This document shows, piece by piece, positions 1,461-63,986 of a stretch of DNA of 64,000 bases; within the stretch, counting starts at the first letter, position 1, and every line of letters starts with the position of its first letter. The stretch is from a virus. The notes beneath the pieces are model-generated. The model was not told the DNA's origin. It worked only from the letters and a program-made list of their open reading frames with translations, and did not search any database. The stretch lies in IMG/VR virus record IMGVR_UViG_3300033153_000868, positions 1 through 64,000 of that record. The stretch is one strand, 5' to 3'. The position numbers and the translations under genes are program-made.

Positions 1461-2777
1461 TTAAATTCGTTTAAATATGTTGGTTGGTCTTTGAATTTTT
1501 CTTTTAGTGCTTCTCTTTGTAGATTCTTTTTCAGCTTGGTTTACACCTAATGATGCACCACCTACATTTGATTGTTCACTTTTTAATTTTCTAACCGTCT
1601 TCTCAACACTCTTTTGTGCACCCTTATCCATTATCTTTGCTTTATATCCTGTTGGATCTTGTAATAACCACAAGGCTTCAGAAATTAATGCATAATTAGG
1701 TTCCACAAATTGATATTTTTCAAGTAGGTGCCCTAATAAATTAGTATTACGCCCACTTACTGATGGGTAATTAGGCTGAACTAAACCATTATATAACATA
1801 GCTTGAGTCTTTCTATCTACTTTAATATCACCTAACTTACCTTCTTTTAATGTTTCATATACATTTTTCATATATGCTTGAGATGCATTTTCTTGTTGTT
1901 TCTTTTTAAGCTCTTGCTCTTCAAGTTTTTGTGCAACAACTTTTTCTTGCATCTTATCTAATTTTGGCTTAAACTTATTTGCTTGTGTTTCAAGCTTACC
2001 TAAGTCTTTCCAAATTTCTATTTCTTCTTGAATATCTTCAGCAGTACCATATCCAGTAGCACTTAGGTATTCTTTAATAATTCTTTCTTGACCACTAACA
2101 CTTTTAACATCAATAGTTTTAGTTTCTTCTACTTGACCAAGTGTTGTAAATAAACCTTTTAGATCTTTACCACCATCAGCTACATATTTAGCAGCTATTT
2201 GTAATTCTTGAGGTAAACTTTGAAAAAATTGTTTTGGAGTTTCTCTTCTAACTTGATTAGCTTTTTCTTCTAAATTAGCTTGAATAAGCTCCTCCCAATC
2301 TTTTGCAGTATAATCTTCTAGTTCTTTATCATCATCAAAAGGAACTATCTTATCATCTTTGATAAGTTTTGAAAATACATCAGATATACCTGATATAGTT
2401 TTTCTTCCTCTTTTTTCTTTTGTTTCTACTTCTTCAGTTTCTTCTTGCCCAAGTTCACCAAAGATTTCTTCAACGCTTTCAGTTGAGGTTTCAGTTTTTT
2501 CTTCAACTACTTCACTTACTTCATCTTTTACTTCTTCCGTAGTCTCTTCTTTTTCTTCTGACTTAGCTAATACATCAGTAGCATCGTCATTATCAGGATC
2601 TGCAAAAGACATATCAGCTTTTTCAGTTAAGCCTGAGAAGATATTTTTAGGTTGAGATTTATTATCTTGAATCATATCAGCACCACTTGGAGCAGCGTTG
2701 AATATCTCATCTAAATTAACTTCTACATTTTGTGCTACGTTACTTTTCACAGGCTGTGTTTCTGTTGTTGTACTCAT
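1461..2777 (-). CDS. Putative scaffolding or capsid assembly protein (438 aa, acidic, coiled coil)
   Basis: The protein lies between portal and major capsid genes, the usual place of a scaffold. The first 130 residues are extremely acidic with long runs of Glu and Thr/Val (around residues 70-120), followed by a KEKRGRK patch. The middle (about 250-320) is rich in Lys, Glu and Gln and should form long helices or coiled coil. The C-terminus is basic (KRSTKRKIQRPTNIFKRI), like the capsid-binding tails of scaffolds. There are no cysteines and no enzyme motifs. No specific family is recognised. A capsid-associated structural protein that stays in the virion is an alternative. Confidence 0.6.
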   Translation of the reverse strand: MSTTTETQPVKSNVAQNVEVNLDEIFNAAPSGADMIQDNKSQPKNIFSGLTEKADMSFADPDNDDATDVLAKSEEKEETTEEVKDEVSEVVEEKTETSTESVEEIFGELGQEETEEVETKEKRGRKTISGISDVFSKLIKDDKIVPFDDDKELEDYTAKDWEELIQANLEEKANQVRRETPKQFFQSLPQELQIAAKYVADGGKDLKGLFTTLGQVEETKTIDVKSVSGQERIIKEYLSATGYGTAEDIQEEIEIWKDLGKLETQANKFKPKLDKMQEKVVAQKLEEQELKKKQQENASQAYMKNVYETLKEGKLGDIKVDRKTQAMLYNGLVQPNYPSVSGRNTNLLGHLLEKYQFVEPNYALISEALWLLQDPTGYKAKIMDKGAQKSVEKTVRKLKSEQSNVGGASLGVNQAEKESTKRSTKRKIQRPTNIFKRI

Positions 2778-14055: not shown

Positions 14056-14379
14056 CTAAGCTTCATAAGTTTCCGGATACGCCTTAAACATTATATCCCT
14101 TAATGCAGCACACTTCTCATAGTCTTCTTCTTCTACGAAGTACGCTATCATATTTTCTAATTCTTCAAGTTTCGGTCCATTGTCTGGATCATAAGCCATC
14201 ACTAACTCTTTTCCCTCACTAAATTGAGTTGATATTAATTCTTCAAAAGTAATTTCCCCGGTCAGTAACATCCATGCATTGTTGTATGCTGTGTCTAATA
14301 TAATAGCATCTAACTGCATTTGCTGTATGTCAGATAAACCACCAGTTTCTTTTTCCCCGTTATCATCCCAATCAGCCAT
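14056..14379 (-). CDS. Acidic protein with a UVR-like motif (107 aa)
   Basis: Near residues 70-97 the sequence LEELENMIAYFVEEEDYEKC followed by AALRDIM follows the UVR motif pattern (two helices with E-x-A-A-x-L-R-D). In UvrB/UvrC and ClpC-like proteins this motif mediates protein contacts. The protein is otherwise acidic and helical. It is the first gene of the long minus-strand structural operon, facing the control region, so it may be made early in the late transcript. Confidence 0.6.
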   Translation of the reverse strand: MADWDDNGEKETGGLSDIQQMQLDAIILDTAYNNAWMLLTGEITFEELISTQFSEGKELVMAYDPDNGPKLEELENMIAYFVEEEDYEKCAALRDIMFKAYPETYEA

Positions 14380-14728
14380 AGTATTTTGTTTAGTGAGTAA
14401 CTCTTCTATAAAAACAATATACTAAAATTCCCCGTCCTATAAAAATTTTTGAGCCACAACATCCCCCCGTCTACTGTAAAATTGCCCCTACGCCCCACCA
14501 AAAAATTGTGTGTTTGGCACTTTCAAGAGGTATATATGATCTGCTCCCCAACTAAATTTTGCAGTGCGGGTACCCCCTATGTTTGCATAGGAACTCAAAC
14601 TGCACTTGCTAACTGCATAAAGTTGTACAAAAAAAAAGAATGTATGACTATTGTGTGATAGCAAAGCGGAGTAGTGTAGTGCTACTGTGTCTACGTCAGG
14701 TATCTACTGAATATCAATACATCATTGA

Positions 14729-14782: not shown

Positions 14783-14814
14783 GGCATTTTTCAATGCCTC
14801 TGCTCCCAAACTAT
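14783..14814 (+). promoter_or_regulatory. Conserved hairpin element, copy 1 (5' leader)
   Basis: A perfect 6-bp stem GGCATT/AATGCC (14783-14788 with 14793-14798) closes a TTTC tetraloop and is followed directly by TCTGCTCCCAAACTAT (14799-14814). The same loop and same 16-base tail occur after a different stem sequence at 15385-15416. Stem change with loop and tail conserved points to an RNA structure or a protein-binding RNA site, probably regulating the 14897 gene. Confidence 0.65.
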
Positions 14815-14896: not shown

Positions 14897-15358
14897 ATGA
14901 ACAATTTAGTAACAGTACGCAAGAATGAAGACGGAACATTCATCAGTAAAACAAAGAACAAAGATATTGGCTTTGTAATCTATGAACAAAAGGCCGTTGA
15001 ACTTAGAAATGGTTGGTATGCAGATAAATCTTTGTCAGCATTAGTATTAGGCCCAATAGCTTTGCTTGAGTCTATGGACCACTCAAAACCATTGACAGGT
15101 AAGATTATTGTGCGTGAGCAACTTGAGCCATTCAATGATAAGGATTTGACATACAAATTAAAGTATGCTGGTGACTCAAAGGTAGTATGTATGAAAGGTG
15201 ATAAACCTATTTACAGAACTACAGAGTTTACCTCAGACCTTAATGCTCAGTCTACTTTTATTCAGCACACCAATGGTGCTGAGATAAGAGAGGCTAACAA
15301 CTCTACTGTAGCTGTAGAGAGCTTGAATGCGTTTAAGCAGGAAACTGTAGAAGCGTAA
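14897..15358 (+). CDS. Early protein of unknown function (153 aa), paralogue of the 18577 gene
   Basis: The protein aligns along most of its length with the 204-aa product of 18577-19191. Shared anchors are GWYADKSLSALVLG against GWLRERNLTTLIMG, TGKIIVREQLEPFN against PGKIIAIESLEPFN, LKYAGDSKVVCMKG against LKYAGDTGIICCQD, and QHTNGAEIREANNS against EHTNGDAIRAANES. The fold looks mainly beta (OB- or PH-like), but the family is unknown to me. It lacks the acidic tail of its paralogue. It is the first gene of the plus-strand block, flanked by two copies of the hairpin element, and could be an abundant nucleic-acid-binding protein that controls its own RNA. That role is inference. Confidence 0.7.
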   Translation: MNNLVTVRKNEDGTFISKTKNKDIGFVIYEQKAVELRNGWYADKSLSALVLGPIALLESMDHSKPLTGKIIVREQLEPFNDKDLTYKLKYAGDSKVVCMKGDKPIYRTTEFTSDLNAQSTFIQHTNGAEIREANNSTVAVESLNAFKQETVEA

Positions 15359-15363
15359 TTGTA

Positions 15364-15418
15364 ACATAGTAGCTTGTGGGTAGGCGTGCTTTTCAGCACG
15401 TCTGCTCCCAAACTATGT
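15364..15418 (+). promoter_or_regulatory. Conserved hairpin element, copy 2 (3' of the early gene)
   Basis: The inner stem CGTGCT/AGCACG (15385-15390 with 15395-15400) closes the same TTTC loop as copy 1 and is followed by the same TCTGCTCCCAAACTAT (15401-15416). An outer helix ACATAGT/ACTATGT (15364-15370 with 15412-15418) encloses it, so the conserved tail sits partly in an internal loop. It begins six bases after the stop codon. There is no T-tract, so it is not a simple terminator. Confidence 0.65.
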
Positions 15419-15539
15419 TTAGCACTTATAAAAATAGAATTAGTACAGAATGTTACTACTCTCAGACAATAACTACTAACTATTGTTACATAGAGTCAAA
15501 AACAATTGAATTAAGTTATAAAAGTGTGGTAATTTTATT

Positions 15540-16501
15540 TTTTTTGTGTGTGTCACTCTGAATGTGAGGTCTTATACCCACAAAATACCACCTTTTACCA
15601 CTCTTGTAACTATGAGTGTTACTAATAATATAAATATAGCTAACGTAGCTACAAGTGTAACTATTACACTCAACAATATAACAAGGGTAGTCTTTGTCTC
15701 TTCCTCTATAGGATAAGAGCCATATTACCCGCAATATTAAAACAGGCACATAGATATATTCCTGTATAAACATGGTTGGTCTAATCCAGTGAGTTGCTGG
15801 CGTAAGAGAGAACTTACAGTAATCTAAACTCAATATGCTAATACCATAACTAGAGGAATGTGGATCAACAATACCAATAAGACTACAAGTTATGGTTATT
15901 AGCTTTAATCATCCAGCAATAAAGCAGGGTGTGAAGTAGATAGGGACGTGGATATTAATCCTGAACTTGGTAATGAGTCCTGCAGGATAGTCTCTATCTA
16001 CTTTTAAAACATAATAACTAATAATCCTACCGTATGGATGGAGGTGAATAGCGGAGTGAATATCTCTATTAGTTATATCTTTTAAACCCGTGGCAACGGG
16101 AGTGTTGGGTGTCACTTTGTACACCAAGAGGAGTAGTTTGTCAGCTTAACCTCGTATACGTTAGGGTCAATGTACCTGTAAGGTTTGACAACCGGAAACC
16201 GTGTATTTGACTTGTCTGTTGAATATGTAACAGTCACCGTCAACCGGGATAACGGTCGTAAGAGGTAATCAGGCTCTTTATTTTTAACTCAAGAACAATA
16301 TAAAGATACGTGTCTAGGTAATTCTAGACTAGTGTGACACACATGAAGTGAATTAGGTTAATTACCTATAGTGTCTAATCAACCAATGAGTATGTTGGTA
16401 GGTGTTGGTCTCACCTAATAATCAAATGACTTATTCCTAACTATGAGTATTCATAGGACAGCCATGCCAGTTGTAGTTGGATAAAACAGACTGGCTTTTT
16501 T
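15540..16501 (+). ncRNA. Large structured non-coding RNA candidate (about 950 nt)
   Basis: No convincing gene fits this stretch, and parts are richer in G+C than the flanks. It can fold into many strong helices: TTGCTGG/CCAGCAA (15794-15800 with 15913-15919) enclosing hairpin GTAAG/CTTAC (15802-15817) and a 15-bp helix with one bulge (15837-15851 with 15888-15903); a 14-bp helix with one G-U pair (15934-15947 with 15990-16003); a perfect 10-bp helix ATAACTAATA/TATTAGTTAT (16014-16023 with 16067-16076); CCCGT-GGCA-ACGGG (16087-16100); GGTGT/ACACC (16108-16125); TTGTCA/TGACAA (16138-16143 with 16186-16191); GTCTAG/CTAGAC (16312-16329); TAGGTG/CACCTA (16399-16417); CTATGA-GTAT-TCATAG (16441-16456). 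A terminator ends it at 16501. Size and phage setting with tRNAs nearby recall GOLLD and ROOL RNAs, but I cannot confirm membership. The 5' end is a guess. A weaker stop (AAGAG/CTCTT then TATTTTT) at 16260-16285 may divide it in two. Confidence 0.65.
16466..16501 (+). terminator. Intrinsic terminator at the end of the structured RNA
   Basis: GCCAGT (16466-16471) pairs with ACTGGC (16490-16495), extended by TGT/ACA with one bulged G, and is followed by six T (16496-16501). The orientation shows that the RNA upstream is read from the plus strand. Confidence 0.75.
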
Positions 16502-16522
16502 AAAATCTAATACTAAAACGTT

Positions 16523-16693
16523 ATGAAAAAACAATTCTTATATTTTATTCTATTACTATTCATAGGTGGACCAATGTTACAATCATGTGGTTCTTCTCGT
16601 AAATGCTCTGTCAAGAAAAGTAAAAAGCATTTTGCAAAGAAGAACTATTGGAAACCTAAAAAGAGACACAAGAGATCCAAATGGGGTCGTTAA
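16523..16693 (+). CDS. Small lipoprotein (56 aa), spanin- or exclusion-type candidate
   Basis: The peptide begins MKKQFLYFILLLFIGGPMLQ followed by SCGSS: a Lys start, a hydrophobic core and a lipobox LQSC, so signal peptidase II should cleave before the Cys at residue 22. The mature part is about 35 residues and almost entirely basic and aromatic (KNYWKPKKRHKRSKWGR). The ATG at 16523 has an A-rich leader. Such tiny basic lipoproteins could be an outer-membrane spanin or a superinfection exclusion factor; neither can be proved here. Confidence 0.65.
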   Translation: MKKQFLYFILLLFIGGPMLQSCGSSRKCSVKKSKKHFAKKNYWKPKKRHKRSKWGR

Positions 16694-17030: not shown

Positions 17031-17154
17031 AAAGTCTCGTATATGGACCACTAACAATACCAGTAATTATATATTATATTAATACTAGGTATTGAGGCTG
17101 TGTTCTTAATCAGATCAAAGACTATTACTGTTACATTTCATACTTGTTTGCAGT

Positions 17155-17739
17155 ATGGTCTTTGATTACAACATAAAATCAATGGCAAAACAATATCACG
17201 TACAGGATGAAGTATTAAAAGGCATCCTTTCAGGTTTATTTGATCAAAGATCTATCAATAAATCAAACAATTTAAAATTTATAACAGATATAATATCTAA
17301 AGAAGTTAAAGATTCAGCTCTAGAAGCTATAATACATCTTATGCTAACAGAAAGAACTTTTGTACCAACAGAGATTGGTAGTTATGTTAGACTAGTACCA
17401 CCAAACTATCATCAAGGCAGTGAATTTGAATTAGATGTTCTTGAAGACATGGGATTACTAGGTAAAGGTGATGAGTATAGTGACTATTATGTATATGGTC
17501 AAGTAGTTGGTGACTCTTCTTGGGGTTCTGATCCTTATGACCCGTTTTATTCTACTATAAAAGTGAATTTAATGTATCATGATGATGATAAAAACCTTAA
17601 GTTTGTAGAAACTACCGTTAGTCCTCTACATGCTCTTAACATACAAAAGAGATTCATAAGTTATTTTAAAAAAGTAAAACAAACAGAACTAAATTTTCAA
17701 GAAGATGGCAAAGATATCAATGGAACTATTGAACTCTGA
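17155..17739 (+). CDS. Phage protein of unknown function (194 aa; start may be 17182)
   Basis: The open frame starts at 17155, but the ATG at 17182 (MAKQYHVQDEVLKG) has a better A-rich leader and gives 185 residues. The middle has an acidic, aromatic stretch (EFELDVLEDMGLLGKGDEYS) and then beta-strand-like sequence. No family or catalytic motif is visible. It overlaps the next gene by 35 bases, which supports an operon. Confidence 0.6.
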   Translation: MVFDYNIKSMAKQYHVQDEVLKGILSGLFDQRSINKSNNLKFITDIISKEVKDSALEAIIHLMLTERTFVPTEIGSYVRLVPPNYHQGSEFELDVLEDMGLLGKGDEYSDYYVYGQVVGDSSWGSDPYDPFYSTIKVNLMYHDDDKNLKFVETTVSPLHALNIQKRFISYFKKVKQTELNFQEDGKDINGTIEL

Positions 17740-18576: not shown

Positions 18577-19191
18577 ATGCAAAATCAAGTAGAAGTCCTA
18601 GCGGATGACATGGGTAATGTTGTACGCTTAAGTAAAAACAATCCAGAGTATTCTTTCATTAGATTAGGATACAAAAGTGTATCAATTGGTAAAGGTGGTT
18701 GGTTAAGAGAAAGAAATCTTACCACTCTTATTATGGGTACAACAGAGAATTTAACCTCTTATGCTAAAAATTTAGGTAAAACATTACCTGGTAAAATCAT
18801 AGCAATAGAGTCTTTAGAACCTTTTAACAACACAAATCCAGACAGAGACCTGAAATATGCAGGTGACACTGGTATTATATGCTGTCAAGACGGACAACCT
18901 ATTTATAGGAAAACAGAATATACTTATGATGTAGAAGCACAAGATATTCTGATTGAGCATACTAATGGTGATGCTATTCGTGCAGCTAATGAAAGCTCTT
19001 TTGAATTAGACAAGTCTAAGATCAAAAAAGCAACAACTGCAGAAGCATTTGGTTTGAAATCTGATGATACAACCACTGATGACACAGAAGATGTCACTGA
19101 GATGGAAGTAACTGAAGAAGAAGTTGTTGCTGAAGTAGAAACAGAAGAAGAAGAAGTTCTTGAAGAAGAAACAGAAACTTTTGAACTGTAA
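18577..19191 (+). CDS. Early protein with acidic tail (204 aa), paralogue of the 14897 gene
   Basis: Residues 1-150 match the product of 14897-15358 in sequence and order of motifs (GWLRERNLTTLIMG, SLEPFNNTNPDRDLKYAGDT, EHTNGDAIRAANES). The C-terminal 45 residues are almost only Glu, Thr and Val and end ETETFEL. An acidic tail with a final aromatic residue recalls single-strand binding proteins, where the tail recruits partners; this is an analogy only. A terminator-like hairpin follows at 19205. Confidence 0.7.
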   Translation: MQNQVEVLADDMGNVVRLSKNNPEYSFIRLGYKSVSIGKGGWLRERNLTTLIMGTTENLTSYAKNLGKTLPGKIIAIESLEPFNNTNPDRDLKYAGDTGIICCQDGQPIYRKTEYTYDVEAQDILIEHTNGDAIRAANESSFELDKSKIKKATTAEAFGLKSDDTTTDDTEDVTEMEVTEEEVVAEVETEEEEVLEEETETFEL

Positions 19192-20081: not shown

Positions 20082-20155
20082 GGTCCTATAGCTCAACTGG
20101 ATAGAGCAACAGCCTTCTAAGCTGTAGGTTCTAGGTTCAAATCCTAGTGGGATCA
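20082..20155 (+). tRNA. tRNA-Arg (TCT)
   Basis: The 7-bp acceptor stem GGTCCTA/TGGGATC closes with G-U pairs, the D arm has AGCTCAACTGGATAGAGC, and the anticodon stem ACAGC/GCTGT holds loop CTTCTAA with anticodon TCT. The T arm reads CTAGGTTCAAATCCTAG. The discriminator is A and no CCA is encoded. It reads AGA, a favoured Arg codon in this A/T-rich genome. Confidence 0.93.
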
Positions 20156-20160
20156 CAAAT

Positions 20161-20249
20161 GGCCGGATGATGAAATTGGTAGACATGAAGGACTTAAAAT
20201 CCTTTGGGCAGTAATGCCCGTGTGGGTTCAAATCCCACTCCGGCTACCA
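20161..20249 (+). tRNA. tRNA-Leu (TAA), CCA encoded
   Basis: The acceptor stem GGCCGGA/TCCGGCT has a G-U first pair. The anticodon stem AAGGA/TCCTT holds loop CTTAAAA with anticodon TAA, and there is a long class II variable arm (GGGCA.TGCCC). The T arm is GTGGGTTCAAATCCCAC. Discriminator A is followed by an encoded CCA at 20247-20249, unlike the two neighbouring tRNAs. It reads TTA. Confidence 0.92.
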
Positions 20250-20323
20250 GGACTCTTAGCTCAGTTGGTCAGAGCACCGCACTCATAATGCGTAGGTCAC
20301 AGGTTCAAGTCCTGTAGGGTCCA
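20250..20323 (+). tRNA. tRNA-Met (CAT)
   Basis: The acceptor stem GGACTCT/AGGGTCC begins on the base after the CCA of tRNA-Leu. The anticodon loop CTCATAA has anticodon CAT within a short stem (CGCA/TGCG). The T arm is CACAGGTTCAAGTCCTGTA-like and standard. The discriminator is A and CCA is not encoded. The CAT anticodon could also belong to a lysidine-modified Ile tRNA; sequence alone does not decide. Confidence 0.9.
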
Positions 20324-20343
20324 CCTTTAACACCAAAAGAGAG

Positions 20344-20460
20344 ATGAAACAATATCAAAAAGACAGGCTAATTAGAATATTAGCTTGGACAATCGTACTA
20401 TCAATAACAATAATATTATGGCAAATAATTCTGGAACGGCTGTTCCAACTAGAAACGTAG
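20344..20460 (+). CDS. Small single-TM protein (38 aa)
   Basis: The ATG at 20344 follows AAAGAGAG, one of the few purine-rich leaders in the window. The peptide MKQYQKDRLIRILAWTIVLS continues with ITIILWQIILERLFQLET and has one membrane helix at about residues 11-31. It overlaps the first 43 bases of the helicase gene in another frame. Translation of it may control helicase translation. No family is known. Confidence 0.5.
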   Translation: MKQYQKDRLIRILAWTIVLSITIILWQIILERLFQLET

Positions 20461-21542
20461 TTCAAGAAGATGCATTAGCAATAGCTGTGCAACATAAAAG
20501 ATGTGGCTTGGCCATATCTATGGGTGTAGGTAAAACTAGAATAGCAATACAGCACCTTCAAAGATACTATGATCAGTTTATACAAGTACTGGTAGTAGTT
20601 CCAAAACATTCAGTAGCTCAATCATGGATTGATGAGTTAGGTAAGATGGGATTAGAAGCTTTAGTTAAGCATATCACATTTACTACATACATCTCATTAA
20701 AAAAGAGAGAACCAAATAACTATGATATAGTATATTTAGATGAATGTCATTCACTTAAATATGTTCATGAGTTATTTCTAGCTAGATTTACAGGTAGAAT
20801 TCTTGGTCTTACTGGTACACCACCAAAAAACACAACCTCTGAAAAGGGAATGTTAGTACAAAAGTATTGTCCTATTAAGTATACATTTACTACGGATGAT
20901 GCAACTGACTCTAAGATACTTAATGACTATAAGATCATTATACATCAGTTAGAATTGTCTAAGTTACCTTCTTTAAAGAAGAAAAACAAGGCAGGTGGAT
21001 TCTGGTATACATCAGAAAGAAAAGACTATGATTATGTTACCAATAGGCTAGCACAAGCTAATACAGACAAACAAATACAGTTTGGTAGAATTATGCGTAT
21101 GAGAGCTCTAATGGATTACACAAGTAAAGAAGCATATGTAAAAGGTATACTTAGTAATGTAAGCAGTAAATGTATTGTATTTGCTAATACTCAAAAACAG
21201 GCAGATAGAATATGCAAGCATAGCTATCACTCTAAAAATTCTAAATCAGATGAAAACCTTGAGTTGTTTTCTGATGGAAGAATAGATAAGCTATCCTGTG
21301 TGTTACAATTATCAGAAGGTGTTACAATACCCGGCCTTAAAGCAGGTATTATTATGCATGCATATGGTAATGAAAGAAAAACAGCACAAAGAATAGGAAG
21401 ATTACTCAGGTTAAATCCAACTGAGACAGCTACATGTCACATACTTATGTACGTAGGTACACAAGATGAGAAATGGGTGGCTGATGCAGTCAAAGGATTT
21501 GATCAATCAAAAATTAAATACTATAATCCACTTAATAAATAA
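20418..21542 (+). CDS. SF2 DNA helicase (374 aa; frame opens at 20385)
   Basis: The motor domains are complete: motif I SMGVGKTRIAI near residue 35, motif II DECH in IVYLDECHSLKY near residue 112, motif III-like LGLTGTPPK near residue 137, and in the second domain FANTQKQADRI, LSCVLQLSEGVTIPG and the QRIGRLLRLNP motif VI. It is a compact helicase of the DEAD/SNF2-like group, as found in crAss-like replication modules. The ATG at 20418 (MANNSGTAVPT) has a good A/T-rich leader; the earlier ATG at 20385 lies inside the small TM gene. Confidence 0.87.
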   Translation: MANNSGTAVPTRNVVQEDALAIAVQHKRCGLAISMGVGKTRIAIQHLQRYYDQFIQVLVVVPKHSVAQSWIDELGKMGLEALVKHITFTTYISLKKREPNNYDIVYLDECHSLKYVHELFLARFTGRILGLTGTPPKNTTSEKGMLVQKYCPIKYTFTTDDATDSKILNDYKIIIHQLELSKLPSLKKKNKAGGFWYTSERKDYDYVTNRLAQANTDKQIQFGRIMRMRALMDYTSKEAYVKGILSNVSSKCIVFANTQKQADRICKHSYHSKNSKSDENLELFSDGRIDKLSCVLQLSEGVTIPGLKAGIIMHAYGNERKTAQRIGRLLRLNPTETATCHILMYVGTQDEKWVADAVKGFDQSKIKYYNPLNK

Positions 21543-57107: not shown

Positions 57108-60100
57108 TTATATAAGACATTTAAGTCTCTCAATTATTTCTTGTTCTCCCTCTTCTGTTTGTGAAAATAAATCACCGTATAAAGCTATTGCATCATCAAG
57201 TGTTTTTATATTTTCTCCAGAAAGCTTTTCTAAAGCAGCACTATTACCTTCTACATTTGCATCCCACCATTCTACTAAACTTGAAGCTTCTGAAATTTCT
57301 TCTGAAGCAAAAAGATCAAGTTCTAGTTGTTCTTGCTCTTGTTGTTCAAGTTCTGTAGCTTCTGGAATGCTCATATCAGTATCTTCTATAATAGCATTTC
57401 CTGTCTCATCAAATATAGCACTATCTGTGTTAGCAGACAACTCAGCCATTATTTTTGCCATATCAGATATATTTGTTTCTGCTGCATCTATATCTGCTTT
57501 AACTGTTACAGAATCTGTAGTTTGATTAACTATTGCTGAGTCAGAGTTTAATACTTCATTAACTTCTAGTATAGCTCCAAGATTAGTATCAACAGGATAC
57601 TCAACCTCACTAGTTTGTTGTGCTGGTTGTTCTAGTTGTGCAGCTCTATCTTGAGGTAAACTATTTTGTGTAGTTCCTTTGCCTACATTTCTTGCTTGAT
57701 CATATGTAAGTCTAGGTCCTCCTACAAAACCACCACCAAATTGTTGATTAGAACCCATAGAAGGAACTTCTAAGTATTCAGTTACCTTTGCATTAGGATT
57801 ATCTTTAGCAAGCAATCTAAACAAAACATAGAAATCTCTACCTTGTCTTTCAACTTTAACCCTTACAAACTCTTTTGCATTTACATGTTCAAAACTCTCA
57901 GAAGTAATAGTAAACTTATTAGGTCTAGAAACTGGGTCAAAAGTAAAGCCTTCATCAAGACTAGAAGCATCATAAGTGACAAGCAATGGTCCTACAACAT
58001 TAGATTGTAAGTATCCATATTTAAAATCTTTCATCACTTCTTCTTTAGAGATACCAAAGACACTTTCAAATTCTACTTGTCCTTTAAGTGCAGCTTCTAC
58101 AGAACCAACATTCTTAAGATATTTATTCATAATAAAAGGACTCATTGCACTCATAAGACTTCCATACTTAAGCTGCAATCCATCTTTAACCATCATGTAA
58201 TGCAGAATGTCTTCAGCTATTTCTCTTGTCTCAAGTGAACCATATAGTTTTGCAAAGGATGTTTGTAAATCAAGTTTATTAGATGCATTAAGTCTTCTCC
58301 ATGTATCCGCTTTTACTAAATTCATTCCTGTGTTATTACCCTGAGTTCCGGCATATTGAGTACCTACAAAATTATCTAAGAAGTAATTAGGCTCTGCACC
58401 TTGTTCAGCTCTTAGCAATTGTAAATCTTCAATTTTTTTAATCAATGATAAGTTAGTTGTACCTACAGGACCAGGATAAAGCAATGTGTTTTCTACAGAA
58501 GAATTACCAGAGCTATTATTAAGAAGATGTTGGTATGACTTAATTGTTAAATAAGATAATAGATCTTGTTCAATACCATTTTTTGCTACATTATCAAAAC
58601 CTCTTGAGTCAACATTCATTTGATTATAAGTAGGCTCTAGTATATCATTAAAGTCCTGACTCATAGTTAAAATAGTGTTAGGTAAAAGATCATTATGTAT
58701 TTGACCAAATATTTCTAAATAAGTACTCTGCCAAGTTTTGCTATTCTTACCATAAATAGGTCTGATATTCATAGGTGCTTCCTTATCAAACAAACTAGTA
58801 ATTGTCTCAATAGCATCTTTCATTTCTGGTATTGAACTAGGTAGACCTTGAGTAAGACTTGTTACTTTATTTATTTTACCTGTAAAGTTTTTAATGTTAT
58901 TAAGTCTTTCAAATAAAAATAGTATTTGAAGTCTTTCATTATTAGTTAAATCTTCAGTGCTGTCTACAGCTGTCTCTAAAAACTCATCTGATAGTTTTAC
59001 AAATGGTGGTTTATTGCCACCTTCTTTTTCCTTAGCAACTAATGAGGCTAAAGATCCAATACGTTTTGTTAAAAGAGTATCTAAACCTGCATCAAATTTG
59101 TCCTCTTTATTTAAAGCTTGATCATACAAGTCTCTTATTTCAGCAGAATTTACTAATAAAATTGAAGTTCTTAGTGGGATCCCCAATGAAACCATATTAC
59201 CAACTAAACCAACAGCATGAATATTAAGTCCAAACTTTGCTATTAAACGTTCTTTAGCATTATCAGTTTCCATTGTTACTAGAGTAGAAATAATATCTTG
59301 TATTCTTTCACCATTTATTTTGTCTTTAGTAAACCCATCATATGTATTATTATTAAATTTTATAGGTCTAGCTAATTTAATATTGTACTCACGCAATAAA
59401 CTTAAAGCTAAATTAGGTTTAACAATAGCACCAATTGCAGCTCCTTTGTTTGCTTCAAAGGCTTTTATCATTCCATGAAGTGTGTCAATATCTACATCAG
59501 AATCCTTTCTGCTTGCAAATAATTCTATACCCTCAACATTAGAAAGCTCATCAAATAAATCCTCTAATATTTTTAAGTCAGCTGCTTGATAAGCAATAGG
59601 TAAATCAGACTTACCTTCACCAGCATCTTGATCAATAGTCTTTAGTGTTTCACCTGTTACACCAGTATTACCTGCTAATACATATCTATAATCTAAAATG
59701 TTATTGTTTAAAACCGCCTCATTAGGTGATCCAAACTTTTTAGAATATTCTTCAAATTGTTTTTTAGTAACAGGAAGACCCAATATTAACATTGCTCTAA
59801 GAGCTTCTTCTGATATACTGTTTACACCTTGTTTATCTGTAACTCTATTTTGTTCAGAATCACTCAAAGAGTTTTCCCTTCTAATAGCCAAGGTTTCCTC
59901 CTTGTATAAAGAAGATGATGTACTATAAATATTATTAGGTTCAGAAGCTTTTTGATTCATGTACTTTATATACTCAAAATAAGAATTACCAGAACCGTAA
60001 GCTTTAAATTCTTTATTGCTATCTAAATAGTACTCTTTTGCCAATGCATATACTTTATCAATATCAAAATCCGCTCCTGATATTTCTACAAGTTCTTTTG

Positions 60101-63100
60101 GAAATATAGCTGTTGAACCATAATATACAGGCATAAAATCAACAACTCTTATGTTTACAGCTGAATGTTTATCTTGTGTTGGTATACGTACTCCAAACAA
60201 CTTGGCTACTGCATCTGGTATTGAAGCATTTGAATTTTCTTGAATTAACTCCATTACATTTCTATCCATAGGAGGCATAATAGTTTCACTATATCTTACT
60301 CCTGTAGGCTCCCCATTTACAACATCATCATTTTGGTATTCCATAACCCCTGTTCTAAGAACATCAAGAACAAGAATGCCATCATGTTTACCATCAACAA
60401 GATCATTTATATTTTCTAGGCTCTCTCCATTATAAGAACTTTCTCTTACAATCTCAGATCTAATAGGCATACCGTTTTTCATTTCATATACACGTCTGTA
60501 AACCTTATGACCAAATGAAGATAGTAATGCAACTGAAGTACCAGGTACTTTTTCTCTTAGTGTGCCTTTGCTAAAATAAGTCAAGAAAAGTTGTTCAAAC
60601 TTTTTAGCTGTTACCGGACTGTTTAAATTATACTTTTGAACACCATCTTCAACTCCAAAGAACTCAAGTAAGTTTGATGCAGCTCCTGAAGCCATAAGAC
60701 CTTTTTGTGCTTCTAATAAAAATGCAGCAAGATTTGGGGTAATGGCTCCTTTTTCTTTTGATAATTCTAACTCATCAAGTGCCGTGTCAAAACTAAATAC
60801 TAAATTTCTTTTGTTTTTGTATTTTAAAGTTACTCTTTCTCCTACTGCTTTGTTGTATGCGTCTCTTACTTTTCCTACAGTATTTAACTCAGGGCTTCCT
60901 TCTATAGTAATTTCTACATCATCACTTTGTTCAGAAGTTATAAGCTCCTTGATTTGGTTCATATCAGTTACTATAATCTTGTTAGAAGGGTTTACAACTT
61001 GAAGACCCAAGTAAGATGTGTCTAAATTAATAGATTGCAAATCTTGTGTTGTATCAAATACATTTGACTCAAGTAAATTAATCCCCTGTTTTAGCATTTT
61101 TATTGCTGAAACTGGAGCCGCCATTGCAAAGTTTTTATTTGCTTCTTCATTAGCTTCCATTTGTTCACGTAAATAATGAAGCTGTTGCATGTTAGGTTTA
61201 GCCTCCCACGTACCTGTTTTTTGATTATAGTTGGATGTATACTCTTTTGTTAAAACGGTAACTGACATTTTTAAAGCAGTTTTACCATCCATATATACAA
61301 ACTTCTTAGAGTTTATAAAGTCCTGTTGCTTTGCTAAATTAATAGAGTTTTCAGCAGAACCCCATGCTCTATCAGCATTTATAGACTCACCCTTATCAAT
61401 GCTATCTAGCATACTTGCCATTGCAGGACTTAATCTACCAAATGCAAAAGTAGAATATCTTATACCTTTTGTAGTAATATAAACTTGAGCATCTGCTAAT
61501 TCAATATCATTACCTGTAAAATCAGACTTAGCTGTTGGATCTTGGAAAGGATATAAATCAAAATTAGTACTAGAATGAGTAATACCTTTATTAAGATCCG
61601 TAATTTCACTATAGGCACTATAGTATGCGGCATTCTGTAGTTTTGCTCTTTTAACTTTATCAACCATGTCTTTTAAAGATACAGCTTGATCACCAAGCAG
61701 TAAATCATTCATTGACTTAGAATTGATATAGTTGTTAAAAAATATTTGTTTTAAGTTATATGCTGAATCATTTGTAAGATTTAACTTAAGTTGTGATAAT
61801 TCAACAGCACCTCTAGAAACACCAGATGCAATAGTTAATCCGTTTAATACTTGCGTAGAAAGATTATCTTTTGCTTTTAATGATGTAATCACATCATCAA
61901 ATTCTTTAAAGCTTTGCTCTAAGCTTTTATTAACTTCTGATCTAATAGATGCATTTGTTACACCTACAGCTAGTGACACAGCTTGTTTAAAAGAAACCGT
62001 CTCTCCTTGTTTAGCTTTATCAATAGCAACTTGTATTAATGCTTTTTTGGTTGATTCAGAAAGCAATAATCCATTATTAGTAAATTTGAATGCTCTGCCT
62101 TTATCAGACCTATCACTTTTTTCATTATTAAATCCTTGAATATCACCAGGTGCATTTTCAAATGCTAATGTTTCTTTGCTAATTCTATCAAACTCAGCCT
62201 CTATGCTATTTATAAATACATTAATAGCTTCTGGTGTAAGAACAACATTACCGTTAACTTCAGTAACTGCTTTAATAACAGGCAAACTTGTTAGGTCTCC
62301 AGTGTTAGCTGCTTCCATTACTCTTAAAAATACAGGAGCCATTGCAACTTGTTGGCCACCTTTTCCTTCTACAGTTTCAACTCTACCCGTTCTTCTGTTA
62401 AAATTAGAAACATAGTTGTTTATAATAGCTATAGCAAACTCTTGTGGCGTAAACTCTCCAAAACTTTGTGTTGATTTATTTTTTGATATAGATTCATTTA
62501 ATATATCTTCAACAGCTTGATCATTTTCAGCGTTTGTAATTTGCTCTTTAATTTTACTACCAGCAACTCTTATTACTTTTAGTCTATTCTGATCAGATAA
62601 GTTTAAAAATGCTTCACTATTAAGCAAATAATTATTTGATAAAAAGTCTTCACTTTTTAATTGTTCAATTTTAGATCTGTTATTTAATGACCCAATGCTT
62701 TTTAAATGATATGTAGGTAATTGATGAGCATATACAATATCACCATTAGGATTTATAAATGTTGATGATCCAATTGTTTCATCAAATGCAGCATTAGAAA
62801 TACTAAGCTTAGTAAGTCTTGATGCCATACCATCCTGTTTAGTGGAATATATATTTGCATTTGTACTAAACCCAGAATATAATTGATCTAATAAATCATT
62901 TGTTATTGGTTCCTCTGTATATCCATCTGACAATGCTTTTAATTCAGGACTGTTTTTTAAGTCAGCTTCTGTTTTAGATTTAGCAATACTATATGCAATG
63001 TAGTTAGGGCTTAATCTAATACCTATTAGATCAAACATGCGTTGAGAAAACTCTCTAGACATTTGATATGCTAAAGATGTTGACTCTGGATATGAAGTCA

Positions 63101-63986
63101 TTGCCTCTTTCATATCTTTAGTAAGGCTTAAGAATTGCTTTAATCTCTTAGGGTTAGCTGCAGCAAGTTTTCTTTTTGTTATGTATGCTTGAGCCCATTC
63201 ATCTAACTGAGCATTAATATCATCTCTTTCAGATGCAGTATATACTAATAAGTTACCATTACCATCTCTTTCATTAAATAGATAATCAACCTTGTAGTTT
63301 TCAAATCCTTTTAATATTGATATCAATAATGAACCATCTTTAACATCTTTAAATGGTTGCTCTGATGTTAGACCTTCTATTGTTAATCCCGTATCATTAA
63401 ATAATTTATCTACAACCGCCTTACCTTGTGGATTTAATCTAGAATATGCATACATTCTTTTAAGCATAACTACAGGATCACTTTCATTTGAAACTGATTT
63501 TAATAAGCTAGTATATGCTTCTTGAAATTTAACAGGAACAATCAATGCTTCACCCTCAGTTAATTCTGTCTTACCAAAGAAGTCAGTATCAACCATTGTT
63601 GTAGTAGCTATATATGATCTTACTTTATATGATAAAGAGTTAAAACCACCTATCTCTGCTGCATCTTTATTAAAGTCACTTGTACTTCTTATACCTGAAG
63701 TCTCTTCAACATTTTCTATTTTTAATTGATTAGCCTGATCCATATCAGAAATAACATTAATCAAAGCAAACACTTCTTTTTTAATGTCTTCAGGATAATT
63801 TATAAATGCCATATCAATTTGTTCAAGATATGCTTTCTTTGTTCCAGAAAAACCTTTGTTGGCTTCTCCCTCTGGATCAAGCATAATCATGAAATCTGTT
63901 TCAAGATCATTATATACTTTTGTAGGGTTATATGACTTCTCAGTTAATGATAATTCATTTACTCTATTTATAAACATACCAGCCAT
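57108..63986 (-). CDS. crAss-like virion RNA polymerase (at least 2292 aa, 5' end may lie outside)
   Basis: Near residue 1306 is EISGADFDIDKVYALAK, which holds the DFDID motif that defines the active site of crAss-like phage single-chain RNA polymerase (shown for the Cellulophaga phage phi14:2 enzyme, which is packaged in the virion and ejected). The three Asp chelate the catalytic magnesium. The C-terminal 170 residues are acidic and low-complexity (QEQEQLELDLFASEEI). The frame stays open through the right edge of the window, so the Met at 63986 (MAGMFINRVNELS) may not be the start. It and the next protein form one operon with 15 bases between. Confidence 0.85.
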   Translation of the reverse strand: MAGMFINRVNELSLTEKSYNPTKVYNDLETDFMIMLDPEGEANKGFSGTKKAYLEQIDMAFINYPEDIKKEVFALINVISDMDQANQLKIENVEETSGIRSTSDFNKDAAEIGGFNSLSYKVRSYIATTTMVDTDFFGKTELTEGEALIVPVKFQEAYTSLLKSVSNESDPVVMLKRMYAYSRLNPQGKAVVDKLFNDTGLTIEGLTSEQPFKDVKDGSLLISILKGFENYKVDYLFNERDGNGNLLVYTASERDDINAQLDEWAQAYITKRKLAAANPKRLKQFLSLTKDMKEAMTSYPESTSLAYQMSREFSQRMFDLIGIRLSPNYIAYSIAKSKTEADLKNSPELKALSDGYTEEPITNDLLDQLYSGFSTNANIYSTKQDGMASRLTKLSISNAAFDETIGSSTFINPNGDIVYAHQLPTYHLKSIGSLNNRSKIEQLKSEDFLSNNYLLNSEAFLNLSDQNRLKVIRVAGSKIKEQITNAENDQAVEDILNESISKNKSTQSFGEFTPQEFAIAIINNYVSNFNRRTGRVETVEGKGGQQVAMAPVFLRVMEAANTGDLTSLPVIKAVTEVNGNVVLTPEAINVFINSIEAEFDRISKETLAFENAPGDIQGFNNEKSDRSDKGRAFKFTNNGLLLSESTKKALIQVAIDKAKQGETVSFKQAVSLAVGVTNASIRSEVNKSLEQSFKEFDDVITSLKAKDNLSTQVLNGLTIASGVSRGAVELSQLKLNLTNDSAYNLKQIFFNNYINSKSMNDLLLGDQAVSLKDMVDKVKRAKLQNAAYYSAYSEITDLNKGITHSSTNFDLYPFQDPTAKSDFTGNDIELADAQVYITTKGIRYSTFAFGRLSPAMASMLDSIDKGESINADRAWGSAENSINLAKQQDFINSKKFVYMDGKTALKMSVTVLTKEYTSNYNQKTGTWEAKPNMQQLHYLREQMEANEEANKNFAMAAPVSAIKMLKQGINLLESNVFDTTQDLQSINLDTSYLGLQVVNPSNKIIVTDMNQIKELITSEQSDDVEITIEGSPELNTVGKVRDAYNKAVGERVTLKYKNKRNLVFSFDTALDELELSKEKGAITPNLAAFLLEAQKGLMASGAASNLLEFFGVEDGVQKYNLNSPVTAKKFEQLFLTYFSKGTLREKVPGTSVALLSSFGHKVYRRVYEMKNGMPIRSEIVRESSYNGESLENINDLVDGKHDGILVLDVLRTGVMEYQNDDVVNGEPTGVRYSETIMPPMDRNVMELIQENSNASIPDAVAKLFGVRIPTQDKHSAVNIRVVDFMPVYYGSTAIFPKELVEISGADFDIDKVYALAKEYYLDSNKEFKAYGSGNSYFEYIKYMNQKASEPNNIYSTSSSLYKEETLAIRRENSLSDSEQNRVTDKQGVNSISEEALRAMLILGLPVTKKQFEEYSKKFGSPNEAVLNNNILDYRYVLAGNTGVTGETLKTIDQDAGEGKSDLPIAYQAADLKILEDLFDELSNVEGIELFASRKDSDVDIDTLHGMIKAFEANKGAAIGAIVKPNLALSLLREYNIKLARPIKFNNNTYDGFTKDKINGERIQDIISTLVTMETDNAKERLIAKFGLNIHAVGLVGNMVSLGIPLRTSILLVNSAEIRDLYDQALNKEDKFDAGLDTLLTKRIGSLASLVAKEKEGGNKPPFVKLSDEFLETAVDSTEDLTNNERLQILFLFERLNNIKNFTGKINKVTSLTQGLPSSIPEMKDAIETITSLFDKEAPMNIRPIYGKNSKTWQSTYLEIFGQIHNDLLPNTILTMSQDFNDILEPTYNQMNVDSRGFDNVAKNGIEQDLLSYLTIKSYQHLLNNSSGNSSVENTLLYPGPVGTTNLSLIKKIEDLQLLRAEQGAEPNYFLDNFVGTQYAGTQGNNTGMNLVKADTWRRLNASNKLDLQTSFAKLYGSLETREIAEDILHYMMVKDGLQLKYGSLMSAMSPFIMNKYLKNVGSVEAALKGQVEFESVFGISKEEVMKDFKYGYLQSNVVGPLLVTYDASSLDEGFTFDPVSRPNKFTITSESFEHVNAKEFVRVKVERQGRDFYVLFRLLAKDNPNAKVTEYLEVPSMGSNQQFGGGFVGGPRLTYDQARNVGKGTTQNSLPQDRAAQLEQPAQQTSEVEYPVDTNLGAILEVNEVLNSDSAIVNQTTDSVTVKADIDAAETNISDMAKIMAELSANTDSAIFDETGNAIIEDTDMSIPEATELEQQEQEQLELDLFASEEISEASSLVEWWDANVEGNSAALEKLSGENIKTLDDAIALYGDLFSQTEEGEQEIIERLKCLI

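Follow-up and report, generated by a model that had tools for sequence, protein, structure and literature searches.

Separate, exchangeable structured RNA modules in the divergent control region of a putative crAss-like phage

Introduction

Does the stretch at positions 15540-16501 of the viral DNA analysed here, where an initial annotation made from the letters alone had placed a single large structured non-coding RNA recalling GOLLD and ROOL, encode one RNA, several RNAs or elements that act as DNA? The window, that is, the whole stretch of 64,000 nucleotides under analysis, comes from a virus record of 114,219 bp (IMGVR_UViG_3300033153_000868). GOLLD and ROOL are structured phage RNAs whose function is unknown and which are often located near tRNA islands (PMC12286853).

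Results

Genomic setting of the region

The region lies between a leftward block of genes (gene 14056-14379, minus strand) and plus-strand genes that form a rightward block from 14897 onward, in a divergent control region. Helicases of gut crAss-like phages, of Flavobacterium phages and of Cellulophaga phage phi14:2 share 25-30% identity with the one encoded at 20385-21542. The phage is taken to be an aquatic crAss-like one, with a Bacteroidota host deduced solely from its relatives. A protein of 2292 amino acids at 57108-63986 has a GSDFDID segment in common with the virion RNA polymerase of phi14:2 (BLASTP E-value of 4e-7), suggesting that a giant RNA polymerase of the crAss type is probably among its gene products. 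In the related crAss001, transcription of the early operon is attributed to the virion RNA polymerase, a role demonstrated in phi14:2 (PMC8375218).

Downstream of the region, a small lipoprotein-like protein (MKKQFLYFILLLFIGGPMLQSCGSS...) is encoded at 16523-16693 on the plus strand and is kept behind modules A, D, E or F (described below) in relatives. Its start codon stands about 20 nt past the terminator of module E, a distance into which a promoter would not fit, and no match to Bacteroidota-type promoters (-33/-7 type) was obtained within 15358-16523 on the plus strand.

Two further features of the surroundings were observed. Paralogous genes (14897-15358 and 18577-19191, 38% identity) stand on either side of the region, the former being absent from many relatives. 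The motif (T)CTGCTCCC occurs in three copies on the plus strand, at 14541, 14800 and 15402, and nowhere else in the window; the copies at 14800 and 15402 are each preceded by a 6-bp hairpin with a TTTC loop and followed by AAACTATRT, whereas the 14541 copy reads CCAACTAAAT instead. This motif is a candidate promoter or RNA element.

The region is an assembly of separate units

Relatives were collected from IMG/VR by a scan with the helicase, giving 80 loci, and by six further pattern scans, which brought the set to about 235 loci, among which are many overlapping copies of the same contigs or near-duplicates. Similarity between the window and these relatives falls into separate blocks, named A, B, C, X, Y, D and E, and the module train is seen on the plus strand across about 150 related phage loci. 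The region is made up of six or more distinct units, each of about 65-205 nt, which are independently gained, lost and reordered: besides A-B-C-Y-D-E, the orders A-Y-D-C (L118), D-A-B (L029), B-A-E (L014), E-Y-D (L110) and B-D-E (L078) were found, with variable spacing between modules. In all helicase-anchored loci the modules and the helicase operon share one strand, and each record that has a D or an E holds a single copy of it.

The divergence of the modules does not track that of the neighbouring genes. For module B, identity to the window's copy reaches 98% in L078, where the flanking proteins are 49-55% identical, and only 74% in L007, where the flanks are at 87-89%. For module E, the corresponding values are 87% with flanks of 49-55% (L077) and 59% with flanks of 68-80% (L013), and for module D, 90% with flanks of 51-58% (L108); D of L078 is 64% identical to that of the window. 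Such mismatches between module and flank identities, which selective constraint alone does not explain, point to recombination between phages.

Coding status, helices and folding energy

The absence of a credible gene, noted initially, was borne out. The homologues of modules D and E are without an open frame in any case, and no protein family was matched by the minus-strand ORFs 15516-15833 and 15909-16127. The former frame is not kept, being stop-free in 2 of 52 A sequences, and minus-strand proteins were ruled out for both ORFs. Module B has a single stop-free minus frame, of only 30 codons.

All the helices listed in the initial annotation were recovered, namely a 15-bp helix interrupted by one bulge (15837-15851/15888-15903), a hairpin at 15802-15817, a 14-bp helix (15934-15947/15990-16003), a 10-bp one within 16014-16076 and the terminator extending to about 16501 (GCCAGT..ACTGGC-TTTTTT). 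On the other hand, TTGCTGG/CCAGCAA (15794-15800/15913-15919), thought to enclose the first two of them, does not form such an outer helix: a 98-nt block that includes its 3' arm is missing from the near-identical siblings L002 and L003, and its 5' arm is part of module B's own hairpin, kept in every B copy.

The structure had also been judged unlikely to arise by chance. Compared with dinucleotide shuffles, the folding of the whole stretch does fall below them on the plus strand (z -3.95; 0 of 20 shuffles), but so does that of the minus strand (z -4.63). By module, the z values are -4.1 for C, -3.3 for X, -2.5 for E, -1.3 for Y, -0.5 for D and -0.1 for B. Folding energy alone is therefore a poor marker of the best RNAs, since D and B are no more stable than their shuffles; comparative evidence is needed, and it is covariation that marks them.

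Covariation of modules D, E and B

Covariation was measured as counts of changed pairs with shuffle controls, not as R-scape statistics, on 7-16 distinct sequences per family, and it supports each of B, D and E, for which the controls with slid partners collapsed. It upholds the claim that this part of a phage control region carries structured non-coding RNA on the plus strand.

Module D (16085-16286, plus strand) is a multi-helix RNA of about 205 nt. Over 16 sequences, 98.1% of the cells pair and 17 of 56 pairs are changed on both sides, against 4.0 expected, a count that none of 500 shuffles equalled; sliding the partner by 1-3 columns reduced pairing to 34-44%. A structure acting as plus-strand RNA tolerates G-U but not A-C oppositions. 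The departures from pairing in D are 31 G-U against 2 A-C, and folding of the minus strand gives 30 A-C and no G-U. A bias so strong, which a DNA hairpin would not show, speaks for D working as a plus-strand RNA. Its 3' domain consists of an ACCG/CGGT hairpin and a terminator-like hairpin (AAGAG-GTAAYCAGG-CTCTT) followed by a T-run. Matches to D were also obtained with model R1. The same 3' domain ends otherwise different RNAs in unrelated, tRNA-rich phages having no protein in common with the window (L083, L086, L094, L100 and L116, the last with 24 tRNA genes); none was found in a scan of bacterial and archaeal genomes.

Module E (16305-16501, plus strand), an RNA of about 200 nt, ends with the GCCAGT/ACTGGC hairpin and TTTTTT. 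Both sides were changed in 20 of 43 pairs in a first set of 7 sequences and in 29 of 43 pairs (71 cells; 0 of 500 shuffles) once four more distant sequences were added, the 11-sequence alignment being fitted to the model and hence leaning towards it. The departures are in the same direction as for D, though less strong (11 G-U against 4 A-C, and 16 against 10 in the larger set).

Module B (15742-15832, plus strand), of about 90 nt, combines a pseudoknot formed by P1 (15742-15746/15761-15765) and P2 (15751-15755/15779-15783) with the hairpins P3 (15786-15791/15795-15800) and P4 (15802-15806/15813-15817). In 7 distinct sequences, 98% of the cells are paired and 7 of 21 pairs are changed on both sides, equalled by 0 of 500 shuffles; both-side changes affect 4 of the 5 pairs of P2.

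Modules C, X and Y

Module C (15837-15903, plus strand; z -4.06) is a hairpin RNA with the conserved loop CAACAATACCAATAAG, free-standing in the window but, in other phages, lodged in a slot within module A. Its stems vary in part while the loop is kept. Across 10 distinct sequences 95.8% of the cells are paired; three pairs are changed on both sides, a count matched by 21 of 500 shuffles, and the covariation score was equalled by none of 500. The support for C as a covarying RNA is consequently weaker than for B, D and E.

Module X (15910-16009, plus strand; z -3.30) carries the 14-bp hairpin (15934-15947/15990-16003) followed by TTTT. It is cleanly missing from the two siblings mentioned above, which are about 98% identical, as a 98-nt presence/absence difference, and has no other homologue among relatives. 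Module Y (16010-16082, plus strand; z -1.32), with a hairpin at 16014-16023/16067-16076 and then TCTTTT, stands just upstream of D and is 92-98% identical in L106, L110, L115 and L118, too little variation for covariation. Both X and Y are folded insertions and may possibly be RNA genes.

Module A and the hairpins F and G

Module A (15563-15741, plus strand) is a conserved control element found in more than 100 loci and divided into A5 (15563-15644), a variable slot (15645-15694) and A3 (15695-15736). A5 carries phased CCCAC/ACCAC boxes and TATAAATATAGCTAAC, the boxes following each other with a 10-bp phase (CCCAC-AAAAT-ACCAC-CTTTT-ACCAC). In the relative loci, A5 gave 138 matches (56 distinct) and A3 148 (42 distinct). 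The departures from pairing on the plus strand are 52 G-U against 61 A-C, and the folding z values on the two strands are -2.5 and -2.1. With such weak z values and no excess of G-U over A-C, A was set aside as a structured RNA; since this sign is lacking and the CCAC boxes are spaced 10 bp apart, A probably acts as a DNA control element.

In other phages the slot of A is occupied by a C-type hairpin or by an F-type three-helix RNA. Module F, with 37 matches, reads CTTAGAGYAATGAGTCAAGCAATACCAC-hairpin-AGCC-variable hairpin-GGATAAGCACTCTAAG, often with a T-run next, and is present in L156, L153, L031, L181, L060 and others, after A or in its slot. Module G (17035-17180, plus strand; z -4.46), where conserved hairpins precede the gene at 17155, has 130 matches in relatives, 50 of them distinct. 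Its CATACTTGTTTGC-type loop is kept while the stem sequences differ, and the stems of F are likewise partly varied with their loops kept.

Module E in tRNA arrays

A looser E pattern found four further homologues (L236-L239), with E-values from the E model, which are rough, of 1e-31 to 4e-17. In three of these contigs (L237-L239, 50-199 kb; L237 is 199 kb and L238 162 kb long) E stands between tRNA-Arg and tRNA-Met. The tRNA-Arg directly abuts the start of E in L238 and L239, an extra tRNA-like sequence stands between the two in L237, and in all three the final hairpin of E stops 4-5 nt short of tRNA-Met and is without a U-tract. This position together with the missing U-tract suggests that in those phages E is a stand-alone RNA gene, and not just a leader or terminator. 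The link with tRNAs put forward initially is borne out in a general sense by the E homologues in tRNA arrays of large phages; in the window, the tRNA genes (Arg, Leu and Met, 20082-20325) are about 3.6 kb from module E.

A tmRNA gene (RF00023, 78.6 bits; 2565-2995) was observed in L236 on the same 22-kb viral contig as the E homologue. In L133, an E that is 96% identical to that of the window (2320-2523) seems to occupy a different place in the genome, as a homologue of window gene 39004 is found about 1.8 kb away.

Searches with blastn of the window region and of the L238 E against annotated phages matched no isolate, and the D and E models gave nothing convincing in five isolates, including Cellulophaga phi14:2 and crAss-like DAC17 (best E-value, itself rough, of 0.02). 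A D-like match in L238 (13.7 bits) was judged to be due to chance.

Discussion

Taken together, the modularity, the exchange, the covariation and the occurrence of E between tRNAs argue for stand-alone RNA genes. We consider it probable that B, C, D and E, and perhaps X and Y, form a train of separate RNA genes or domains behind A which yields early RNAs, in part terminator-released, acting in trans, their transcription, release and action being what we infer. Its transcription would set out from the control region and follow the rightward operon's strand; some of the transcripts would be released at the U-tract hairpins of D and E as discrete RNAs of about 200 nt, and the others would read through and express the genes behind, the one at 16523 included. 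The 3' end of E would be made in the window by its own terminator, and in the large contigs with tRNA arrays E would be excised by the enzymes maturing the adjacent tRNAs. Once released, the RNAs would exert their effect in trans, and their most likely binding partners in takeover would be the translation machinery or proteins of either host or phage. By extension, aquatic Bacteroidota phages might draw on a common stock of stand-alone RNA genes (B, C, D, E and their relatives), which would act in trans in takeover and be passed between crAss-like control regions and the tRNA arrays of much larger phages, as cassettes like tRNA arrays; this broader proposal is put forward tentatively.

The same RNAs also lie in the operon leader and could act in cis, a reading kept alive because there is no room for a promoter between the terminator of E and the gene at 16523. 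The modules would then be nascent-RNA elements, put-like antiterminators or attenuators making the polymerase ignore or obey later terminators. The head of the rightward operon beside a divergent control region, the constant gene strand, the terminators just before start codons and the presence of F and G, further hairpins that precede genes in this operon, are all consistent with it, and the put RNA of HK022, of about 70 nt and two stem-loops, offers a precedent (PMC9378689). However, E occurs without a U-tract between tRNAs in large phages, D and E are far bigger than put, the order of the modules is free and the 3' domain of D is found near tRNAs in unrelated phages, and action in cis alone appears rather unlikely.

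It is improbable that the hairpins serve the processing or stability of mRNA, as RNase sites or decay barriers between early cistrons. The early mRNA of T7 is a precedent for processing elements in such positions, and the many closed helices between or before genes, like the varying stems and kept loops of C, F and G, agree with this idea. Yet long conserved single-stranded motifs and a covarying fold of about 200 nt exceed the needs of a processing site, and the E of the tRNA arrays adjoins no mRNA to protect.

Inverted repeats acting as DNA, whether hairpin promoters of a virion RNA polymerase, a replication origin or recombination sites, are very improbable as an account of the whole region: B, D and E covary over entire multi-helix folds and the bias of D for G-U over A-C is that of an RNA. 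For A itself, strongly conserved, with its 10-bp-phased boxes and no clear RNA signature, action as DNA is the likelier reading, and a putative crAss-type giant RNA polymerase encoded by the phage would fit it. Lastly, one large, ornate, particle-forming RNA of the GOLLD/ROOL kind, which the size of the stretch, the phage context and the tRNAs in the block had brought to mind, is hardly credible, as no Rfam match was obtained, the modules come and go singly and the enclosing helix is not conserved.

With the RNAs described here, crAss-like phages, on whose non-coding RNAs a partial literature search found no paper, gain three or more structured RNA families that covary strongly and lack an Rfam entry. 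As modules, such RNAs pass between phages as unlike as a crAss-like one of 114 kb and those represented by contigs reaching 199 kb.

Comparison with known systems

Rfam 15, which includes GOLLD, ROOL and OLE (PMC12286853), matched only tRNAs in the window at gathering and permissive thresholds alike, and only tRNAs and one tmRNA in scans of the window and 24 relative loci. The single GOLLD/ROOL-like RNA suggested by the initial annotation gives way to separate, reordered units: GOLLD and ROOL are single RNAs of about 660 to more than 800 nt that form cages, whereas the units described here measure about 65-205 nt and move separately.

A likeness of B to eukaryotic Y RNA, seen by eye, was dropped. 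The Ro/Y-RNA system needs a TROVE protein beside the RNA; no TROVE/Ro protein is present in 16 phage records, that of the window included, and B has no Rfam match.

By position, the closest known system would be the put RNA of HK022, a structured RNA heading an early phage operon (PMC9378689), which the location in the window fits. Put acts in cis on the host RNA polymerase and is made of two stem-loops in about 70 nt, whereas D and E, which match it neither in size nor in fold, are of about 200 nt and E occurs inside tRNA arrays.

By context, the closest kind would be RNAC and RNAD of T4, small RNAs of the T4 tRNA region whose role is unknown (PMC3014915, PMC9697503), a likeness drawn from context, with sequences compared via Rfam only. 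In both cases phage small RNAs are tied to tRNA genes, as E homologues are between tRNA-Arg and tRNA-Met in the three large contigs. The E of the window differs in standing about 3.6 kb from the tRNAs, in an RNA train and with its own terminator, and RNAC and RNAD are late RNAs, unlike E in the proposed early train. Module E nevertheless ties the RNAC/RNAD puzzle of small RNAs in phage tRNA clusters to a family diverse enough to be dissected, and its place between two tRNAs opens a direct biochemical test.
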